A stretch of DNA of 45,257 nt from an uncultured Flavobacteriaceae bacterium (GTDB taxonomy: Bacteria > Bacteroidota > Bacteroidia > Flavobacteriales > Flavobacteriaceae), in NCBI GenBank assembly GCA_937937185.1, contig CALDCO010000178.1, positions 1 through 45,257 on the forward strand, written 5' to 3'. A program made the translations under genes and the position numbers. Below the pieces are notes generated by a model. It saw nothing but the letters and a program-made list of their open reading frames with translations. It made no database searches and was not told the origin of the DNA. Of the stretch, positions 13,467-45,257 are shown in pieces; positions within the stretch are counted from its first letter, which is position 1, and each line of letters opens with the position of its first letter.

Positions 13467-13609
13467 CGTGATTTCGACATAAGAAAATTTACGTCAGTCA
13501 GTGATTTTCTATAAAGCCCCTATTTCCGATACAATTTTTCTTCGTTTTCACTCTGAAAAATCACTCAATTTGACGGCTTTTCATTCTAAATCTTTAACTT
13601 GAACTCTCG
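13467..13609 (-). repeat. Intergenic palindromic repeat element, copy 1 (inverted relative to copy 2 at 44851-45029)
   Basis: Reverse complement (aacgagagttcaagttaaagatttagaatgaaaagccgtcaaattgagtgatttttcagagtgaaaacgaagaaaaattgtatcgg...actgacgtaaattttcttatgtcgaaatcacg) aligns along its length with 44851-45029. Confidence 0.85.
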
Positions 13610-42911: not shown

Positions 42912-44537
42912 ATGGCAGAAGTAATTAATATGCCGCGTTTAAGCGACACCATGGAAGAAGGTACAGTAGCCACTTGGTTGAAAAAAGTAGGGGATAAAAT
43001 TGAAGAGGGCGATATTTTAGCAGAAATCGAAACCGATAAAGCGACTATGGAGTTTGAGTCTTTTAATGAAGGGACGCTACTTCACATAGGCGTTAAAGAA
43101 GGTGAAACCACAAAGGTCGACGAGCTACTAGCTATTATTGGCGAAGAAGGAGAAGATATTTCGAGCTTTTTAAAAGAAAAAAACACCTCAAAAGAGAATA
43201 AAGATAACACGCCTACTGCGGATACAAGTAGTAAAGAGAATAAAAATGATTCTGCTGGTGAAGTTGAACTACCCGAAGGCGTAATTATTGTTACAATGCC
43301 TCGATTAAGTGATACTATGGAGGAAGGTACGGTAGCTACTTGGTTAAAAAAAGTAGGGGATACAGTTGAGGAAGGCGACATTTTAGCAGAGATTGAAACC
43401 GATAAAGCCACCATGGAATTCGAATCTTTTAATGCAGGTACTTTGTTGTATGTAGGGTTAAAAGAAGGAGATTCTGCTAAAGTAGATGATTTATTAGCTG
43501 TTATTGGTCCTAAAGGGACAGAGGTTTCTCATATTGTAAAAAATTTCTCGGTGAATGCTAATCCGGTTCCCGAAGTGGCGCTTGAGCCTGATCAACCACA
43601 GCAAGTGCCATCTAAGTCTGTTGCTAATAATTCAACTAAACAAACTCCAGAAGTTATTGCTTCTAACACTACAGGGCGAGTATTTGTTTCGCCTTTAGCA
43701 AAGAAAATGGCTGAAGAAAAAGGGCTAGACTTATCTCAAATTAAAGGATCTGGAGAAAACGGCCGGGTTATTAAAAGAGATATAGAAAGTTTTGTGCCTG
43801 GAAAATCGGAAGGAAAATCACTAGCGCCAGTCGCAAAGTTTATTCCTTCAGGGCAAGAAGATATCGATGAGGTTAAACATTCTCAAATGAGAAAAGTAAT
43901 TGCTAAACGTTTAGCCGAATCGAAGTTCTCTGCACCACATTATTATTTGAATGTAGAATTTGATATGGAAAATGCTATGGCATTTAGAGCACAATTTAAT
44001 TCTATTCCTGAGGTTAAAATCTCTTATAACGATATGATTGTTAAGGCTTGTGCTTTAGCGTTACGTCAACATCCGCAGGTAAACTCCAGATGGTTTGCCG
44101 ATAAAATGCAATTAAATAATCACGTACACATAGGCGTTGCGGTTGCTGTAGATGATGGTTTAGTAGTTCCTGTTGTTCGTTTTGCTAACGAGCAAACATT
44201 ACCTCAAATAGGGGCTGCGGTTAAAGATTATGCTGGAAGGGCAAGACAAAGAAAACTAACCCCTCAAGAAATGGAAGGGAGTACATTTACCGTTTCTAAT
44301 TTAGGGATGTTTGGTATAGAAAGTTTTACATCGATTATTAACCAGCCTAATTCAGCTATATTATCTGTAGGCGCTATTGTTCAAAAACCCGTTGTTAAAA
44401 ATGGGGAAATCGTTGTTGGGAATACCATGAAACTTACATTAGCATGCGATCATAGAACTGTCGATGGCGCTTCTGGCTCTCAGTTTTTACAAACCTTAAA
44501 GGGCTATATAGAAAATCCAGTAACCATGTTAGTTTAG
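42912..44537 (+). CDS. pdhC: Pyruvate dehydrogenase E2 (dihydrolipoyllysine acetyltransferase) with two tandem lipoyl domains
   Basis: Two copies of MPRLSDTMEEGTVATWLKKVGD...EIETDKATMEFESF; E3-binding domain VSPLAKKMAEEKGLDLSQIKGSGENGRVIKRDI; catalytic DHRTVDGA. Confidence 0.96.
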   Translation: MAEVINMPRLSDTMEEGTVATWLKKVGDKIEEGDILAEIETDKATMEFESFNEGTLLHIGVKEGETTKVDELLAIIGEEGEDISSFLKEKNTSKENKDNTPTADTSSKENKNDSAGEVELPEGVIIVTMPRLSDTMEEGTVATWLKKVGDTVEEGDILAEIETDKATMEFESFNAGTLLYVGLKEGDSAKVDDLLAVIGPKGTEVSHIVKNFSVNANPVPEVALEPDQPQQVPSKSVANNSTKQTPEVIASNTTGRVFVSPLAKKMAEEKGLDLSQIKGSGENGRVIKRDIESFVPGKSEGKSLAPVAKFIPSGQEDIDEVKHSQMRKVIAKRLAESKFSAPHYYLNVEFDMENAMAFRAQFNSIPEVKISYNDMIVKACALALRQHPQVNSRWFADKMQLNNHVHIGVAVAVDDGLVVPVVRFANEQTLPQIGAAVKDYAGRARQRKLTPQEMEGSTFTVSNLGMFGIESFTSIINQPNSAILSVGAIVQKPVVKNGEIVVGNTMKLTLACDHRTVDGASGSQFLQTLKGYIENPVTMLV

Positions 44538-44829: not shown

Positions 44830-44850
44830 TATCTTTAGAGTCTAAATTAC

Positions 44851-45029
44851 CGTGAGTTCGACCTAAGGATTTAGAATGAAAAAGCCGTCAAATTGAGTGA
44901 TTTTTCAAAGAGAAACGAAGAAAAATGGTATCGAAATTAGGCTTTTGATTGAAAATTTATTGGTCTTCGATACAATTTTGTATCGAAAATCACTCGGACT
45001 GACGTAAATTTTCCTGTGTCGAACTCACG
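44851..45029 (+). repeat. Intergenic palindromic repeat element, copy 2, with perfect 11-bp terminal inverted repeats
   Basis: Left end cgtgagttcga (44851-44861), right end tcgaactcacg (45019-45029); nested inverted segments cgtcaaattgagtgatttt / aaaatcactcggactgacg and tcgatacaattttgtatcga. Confidence 0.88.
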
Positions 45030-45059
45030 TTAAATTAAGAGATTTAAAACAACTTACCA

Positions 45060-45257
45060 ATGAGGAAATTATCAACACTTATGCTGCTCACCTTCCTATT
45101 AACATGCAAATCTTCCCAAAGAGAAAATTCTAAAGAAATAACGATTACAAGCGATGAAGTTAGAGAGATGGTCTCTTATTTAGCTTCGGATGATTTAAAA
45201 GGTAGGGATACAGGTAGTAAAGAAATAGATGCTGCTGCGGCCTACATAGAAAAGCAA
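45060..45257 (+). CDS. M28/M20-family-like peptidase lipoprotein, N-terminus only (truncated by window end)
   Basis: MRKLSTLMLLTFLLTCKSSQRENSKEITITSDEVREMVSYLASDDLKGRDTGSKEIDAAAAYIEKQ; 'YLASDDLKGRDTGSKE' is typical of M28 aminopeptidases. Confidence 0.7.
   Translation, partial: MRKLSTLMLLTFLLTCKSSQRENSKEITITSDEVREMVSYLASDDLKGRDTGSKEIDAAAAYIEKQ

Follow-up and report, generated by a model that had tools for sequence, protein, structure and literature searches.

What kind of unit is the palindromic stretch of about 180 bp that separates a pyruvate dehydrogenase gene (pdhC) from a peptidase-like gene at the end of a flavobacterial contig, and how did it come to lie there? The window, that is the whole stretch of 45,257 nucleotides that was analysed, belongs to a draft genome of 3.54 Mb in 362 contigs that is 96% complete (G000). 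The original prediction, made from the letters alone, wavered between a MITE-like non-autonomous element and a structured RNA or promoter element. It is the first of these that is borne out by many copies, target duplications, empty relatives and a transposase with matching ends in related genomes. The element is very probably a non-autonomous IS982-type transposable element (a MITE) with an inverted pair of REP-like units as its cargo.

The unit between pdhC and the peptidase-like gene

The two 11-bp ends, CGTGAGTTCGA (44851-44861) and TCGAACTCACG (45019-45029), are perfect inverses of each other and lie exactly where they had been placed. Exact copies of them occur within the window at these two ends only, and allowing one mismatch adds a third end site at 13467 (chance expectation 0.26 sites). 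The mobile unit is slightly wider than the predicted 44851-45029 and spans 44850-45030, as similarity among the copies stops at the A preceding CGTGAGTTCGA and the T following TCGAACTCACG. The element measures 179-181 bp, and its 11-bp perfect repeats sit inside an 18-bp end consensus. The features of the locus, together with a second copy elsewhere in the window, are as follows.

42912-44537, + strand: gene upstream of the element, resembling pyruvate dehydrogenase E2 (from matches to the 2-oxoacid_dh, lipoyl and E3-binding domains)
44830-44837, + strand: TATCTTTA, which may be a -7 promoter box for the gene downstream, present after pdhC in four relatives (L219, L222, L223, L226)
44843-44849, no strand: left target-site duplication TAAATTA (from the sequence and the duplication test over 46 copies)
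44850-44868, + strand: left IS982-type terminal inverted repeat, consensus ACGTGAGTTCGACMTAAG (from the alignment; matches the ends of 1-kb IS982 elements in relatives), its first base being C in the window copy and A in the consensus
44886-44939, + strand: left REP-like unit with the head CGTC at 44886-44889, family-wide form GTCARTTCGAGTGATTTTT..AAAATTGTATCGAGAAC (from the alignment and copies elsewhere)
44940-44962, no strand: spacer separating the two inverted REP-like units (from the alignment)
44963-45004, - strand: right REP-like unit, inverted, with the head CGTC (GACG on the + strand) at 45001-45004 (from the alignment)
45010-45030, - strand: right IS982-type terminal inverted repeat, family form TTTTCTTATGTCGAACTCACGT (from the alignment; right end of the IS982 in G002, TTTCTTATGTCGAACTCACGTT)
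45031-45037, no strand: right target-site duplication TAAATTA (from the sequence)
45060-45257, + strand: start of the downstream peptidase-like gene, the contig ending at 45257 (full-length homologue after pdhC in L219)
13467-13609, - strand: another, more diverged member of the MITE family, 143 bp, flanks TAACTTA and TAATTTA (84% over 107 bp)

The element contains no open reading frame of at least 80 aa, in line with its description as non-coding, and the downstream start codon at 45060 stands 30 bp past its end, as had been stated. The 66-residue fragment of the downstream gene has no significant Pfam match, and the name peptidase is a reading from its sequence alone.

Copies, target duplications and empty loci

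The genome carries at least 50 copies of the element; had the two in the window been the only ones, this would have told against the MITE-like reading. Full or near-full copies scored in the genome number at least 40, most of them 90-97% identical. The left end was found at 70 sites in the genome at up to three mismatches versus 0 in the reversed control, and TTAACGTGAKTTCGA at 185 sites versus 29 in the control. For 52 copies aligned with 20-bp flanks, the mean pairwise identity is 0.81 with the flanks counted, and none of the 52 overlaps an open reading frame of at least 90 aa by more than 60 bp. The copies occupy tandem, convergent and divergent gaps between genes, and 27 of the 52 lie near contig ends or have one visible neighbour. 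On contig C277 (L037, about 980-1350), two copies are arranged in tandem, both ending in CACGCTAATTTA and apparently sharing a common target duplication.

Beyond the ends of the element lie AT-rich words that are alike within a copy and different between copies, for instance TAAATTA, TAATTTA, TAGATTA, TAAAATA, TAAGTTA and TAATTA. An exact target duplication of 6-8 bp is present in 26 of the 46 both-ended copies (lengths 6, 7 and 8 in 8, 17 and 1 copies, respectively) and missing from the other 20. Shuffling the flank partners gave a mean of only 5.0 exact duplications (sd 2.0, maximum 14 in 5000 shuffles). The window copy itself has TAAATTA on both sides, and hence the target duplications foreseen for a MITE-like element are found here as well as across the family. 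When the length was fixed at 7, the mean flank identity was 0.64 versus 0.60 in shuffles, a small difference because the duplications vary between 6 and 8 bp and every target is AT-rich.

Empty sites, likewise foreseen, were found in four relatives in which the same peptidase-like gene comes shortly after pdhC, with no such element in between: an uncultured Flavobacteriaceae MAG (L219; pdhC product 84% identical), a Lacinutrix MAG (L222), Bizionia paragorgiae (L223) and Hanstruepera marina (L226). These relatives are diverged and the exact target sequence is not preserved in them. TATCTTTA, which we take to resemble the Bacteroidota -7 box, is kept in all four, mostly directly 3' of a terminator-like hairpin, and in the window the element begins 12 bp 3' of it. 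A search for sigma-70 promoters and terminators inside the element gave 2 promoter-like sites in the region versus 2.9 expected, and 0 terminators. The unit would have entered the gap between the promoter-like TATCTTTA and the start codon of the peptidase-like gene, and it would probably add a long hairpin to the 5' untranslated RNA of this gene.

The 228 bp that follow the element (45030-45257) recur with 226 of 228 positions identical on another contig of the same genome (C290; L009 1177-1404), after another MITE copy. The C290 copy has a different left flank, and matching duplications together with conserved gene order are seen for the window copy only. MITE-mediated recombination, strain variation and misassembly are possible alternatives for this repeat.

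The suggestion that the whole element could fold into one long stem agrees with its predicted single-strand energy of -56.7 kcal/mol, versus a shuffled mean of -35.1 (z = -5.5; reached in 0 of 200 shuffles). The perfect inner hairpin TCGATACAATTTTGTATCGA is indeed present in the window copy, but it is private to it: position 44980 is G in this copy and C in each of the other 39 copies in the alignment, and the hairpin is therefore not a family trait. Could the element be a structured regulatory RNA or UTR element that is under selection as RNA? The stable fold would fit such a role, and so would the intergenic positions of the copies and the start codon 30 bp downstream of the window copy. However, among 40 copies the paired changes stay near their shuffled values (compensated pairs 4 versus 3.2; further pair types 29 versus 28.8), and two-sided changes are confined to the terminal repeats and the part of the outer stem next to them, with none in the core. 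RNAalifold gives -6.5 kcal/mol with a covariation term of -0.04, no Rfam family is matched at threshold, and the copies are spread over convergent, tandem and divergent gaps alike. We consider selection as RNA to be very improbable for this family.

IS982 ends and a REP-like interior

The end sequence occurs at up to two mismatches in 103 of 400 genomes of Flavobacteriaceae, and it is in such relatives that the anticipated transposase with matching ends was found. A transposase gene lies between two such ends, spaced about 1 kb, in G061 (301 aa, intact), G151 (299 aa) and G169 (broken). The products of the first two match the IS982 family (NCBIfam NF033520; 267 bits for G061 and 254 bits for G151, cut-off 130) and PF13612 in Pfam. 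G296 has one more IS982 with these ends, flanked left and right by TAATTA. Moreover, G002, which is of the same genus as the source genome, has an interrupted IS982 (85% identical) whose right end TTTCTTATGTCGAACTCACGTT matches the MITE sequence TTTTCTTATGTCGAACTCACGTT past the shared repeat and into the subterminal bases. In the source genome no IS982 gene was detected by protein or NF033520 profile search, though a draft of 362 contigs breaks at repeats and an IS copy may be missing from it. From these relatives we infer a putative IS982 parent, of which no copy was found in the assembly of the source genome; the presence of the parent transposase in the same genome is usual for a MITE, not required.

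The interior of the element is unlike the interiors of IS982 and consists of an inverted pair of CGTC-headed REP-like units, with the heads on both sides (columns 40-43 and 155-158 of alignment A1). The exact YGTCA..TGACR pair is kept in 34 of the 52 copies versus 1 in shuffles. A less degenerate form, GTCARTTCGAGTGATTTTT...AATTGTATCGAGAAC, is found in many copies in other Flavobacteriales, and in G048 it forms clusters of alternating units. The same core is present in G024, G031 and G034, all three without any site of the first end type, and the source genome itself has free pairs without these ends on contigs C5 and C182. A second, palindromic end type, ACCCGTTGTGCATTTTGA, which surrounds another IS982 transposase in G001 (193 bits), encloses the same pair in G008 and G031 and half of it in G021; the duplications next to the two G008 copies, as read by eye, are TTTAAAA and TTGATTA.

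The first end type also encloses other repeats. It surrounds GTCAGTTCGAGCGCAGTCGAGAAC pairs in G205, where 14 of 20 elements keep the YGTCA..TGACR pair (0.55 in shuffles), and in G378, where 4 of 19 do (0.4 in shuffles), and in G330, G286 and G375 (one element each) it surrounds repeats of the TGTCATTCCG or GTCAGGTTG type; several genera in this comparison are represented by a single element each. REP-less elements make up most of the G378 family and are found in G142, in G338 and as a 74-bp element in G021. Because the core occurs free and within other ends, and the first ends occur with other REP classes or with none, ends and core are modules that can be separated and that have come together more than once.

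Several further observations concern these repeats and ends. In the G048 clusters (L117, L127, L135, L141), which are BIME-like, the GTCAGTTCGAGTG repeats alternate in orientation and follow one another at regular intervals of about 43, 54 and 112 bp. About 30 elements of 290-415 bp in G378 (L299-L318) have unequal ends, AACGTCAGTTCGATATAA and AACGTGAGTTCGACGTAA, and lack a REP pair. Five IS982 copies of that genome (56% identity) are not the obvious parents of its MITEs, as they seemingly have AACCTGAG ends versus AACGTSAG in the MITEs. The first end type (ACGTGAGTTCGA) and many flavobacterial REP heads (GTCAGTTCGAG) both contain GTSAGTTCGA, and one G378 end reads CGTCAGTTCGA; judged by such shared letters, IS982 ends and REP heads may have a common origin.

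An inverted REP pair is also what a REPIN is made of, and the whole unit might be one, spread by a RAYT (an HUH single-strand enzyme); the source genome does have Y1 transposases, among them one RAYT-like gene of 190 aa. In 11 genomes searched with PF01797, however, no fetched Y1 locus is flanked by these repeats. The RAYT-like gene has an inverted repeat of its own, GCTAGCGCTCGTCTGTG, and the one intact IS200-like copy near the ends of the element (on C64) has inserted itself into a copy of the MITE. The GTAG head of REPIN/RAYT systems is absent, both heads reading CGTC. HUH transposition is not known to produce target duplications, whereas they are present in 26 of the 46 copies here, and IS982 genes lie between the same ends. 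We have rejected a RAYT origin of the whole unit, as no Y1 gene comes with these repeats and that on C64 belongs to an IS200-like insertion; its probability seems slight indeed. The C64 element (L076 485-1375) carries an intact 164-aa Y1 transposase and lies in the central spacer of the MITE copy, while the RAYT-like gene on contig C345 (L103 1180-1891) stands between inverted GCTAGCGCTCGTCTGTG copies, a different REP type.

In the IS982 explanation, a transposase that has since been lost from the genome, or is missing from the assembly, would have bound both ends in trans and moved the unit into AT-rich intergenic sites resembling TAAWTTA, with duplication of 6-8 bp. The REP pair would have been captured between two IS982 ends and then amplified as a passenger. 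Alternatively, REPs may have been inserted later into one IS982 MITE, which then amplified while carrying them. REPs and MITEs do each occur separately in these genomes, and a late insertion is indistinguishable here from capture at birth, but the association across genera and with two end types would need many REP insertions into MITEs. We therefore regard the late insertion as rather unlikely and prefer capture between the ends.

Known systems and the spread of REP pairs

IS982 MITEs (in Cardinium), a REP-containing MITE (in Coxiella) and a MITE with another repeat as cargo (in Porphyromonas) were known before; what is new is that REP pairs have repeatedly been joined to IS982 ends, with both end types and in a number of genera. 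An exact-word literature search for MITEs in Flavobacteria found none, which does not imply their absence.

MITECca01 of Cardinium cOegib is about 240 bp long, has 169 copies and carries ends of the IS982 family (ISCca4), according to the portion of the report available (PMC9769881). It shares with the window element a Bacteroidota host, IS982-family ends, the lack of a gene and a mostly intergenic distribution. Unlike the window element, it has its parent IS982 intact in the same genome, being derived from a defective ISCca4 copy, and no REP cargo is mentioned in that portion (PMC9769881). QMITE2 of Coxiella burnetii (150-190 bp) resembles our element as a short MITE with terminal repeats, direct repeats (there 7-11 nt) and a REP inside (PMC5896051, from the accessible text). 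It lies mainly in 3' untranslated and intergenic regions, its small copies are plain REPs, and the REP serves as an IS insertion target (PMC5896051). However, its REP is of the GTAG type, its host is a gammaproteobacterium and the accessible text reports no link to IS982 (PMC5896051), whereas in elements of the present kind, which are spread over different genera, the REPs belong to several classes and the IS982 ends to two types. BrickBuilt of Porphyromonas gingivalis is likewise a MITE with a foreign repeat as its interior, there a minisatellite, but it has IS5-like ends and 23-nt tandem repeats (PMC4596501).

The core itself recalls the CGTC-tagged REP superfamily, which has CGTC or TGTC heads, forms inverted pairs and is reported in Bacteroidetes (PMC3733652, here and below from the part of the paper at hand). 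The head and the inverted pairs are shared with our element, but the published repeats have 8-9 bp stems starting with AT, 4-5 nt loops and CCA tails, versus a unit of about 40-54 nt with an interrupted stem and no AT start here; for this reason we call the core REP-like and do not file it in that family. That part describes the superfamily as not linked to tyrosine transposase genes, with links to other transposase genes only fortuitous, and proposes mobilisation by other transposases as one option (PMC3733652). Some REP dimers are noted there inside longer palindromes, with no transposon explanation given in that part (PMC3733652).

As a tentative extension, which we think possible though doubtful, IS982 transposases could be what generally carries CGTC/TGTC-type REP pairs around in Flavobacteriaceae, in that different IS982 lineages repeatedly capture the REP class present in their genome and spread it as MITE cargo, and the REPs later lose the ends. 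If true, this would explain how a REP superfamily is dispersed without a transposase of its own. REP-like pairs inside two kinds of IS982 ends, with duplications around the whole unit, offer a concrete and testable route for REP multiplication, and the question raised in 2013 about the spread of CGTC REPs is thereby made testable rather than answered. Some flavobacterial repeats that resemble folded RNAs or terminators are in fact transposon cargo.
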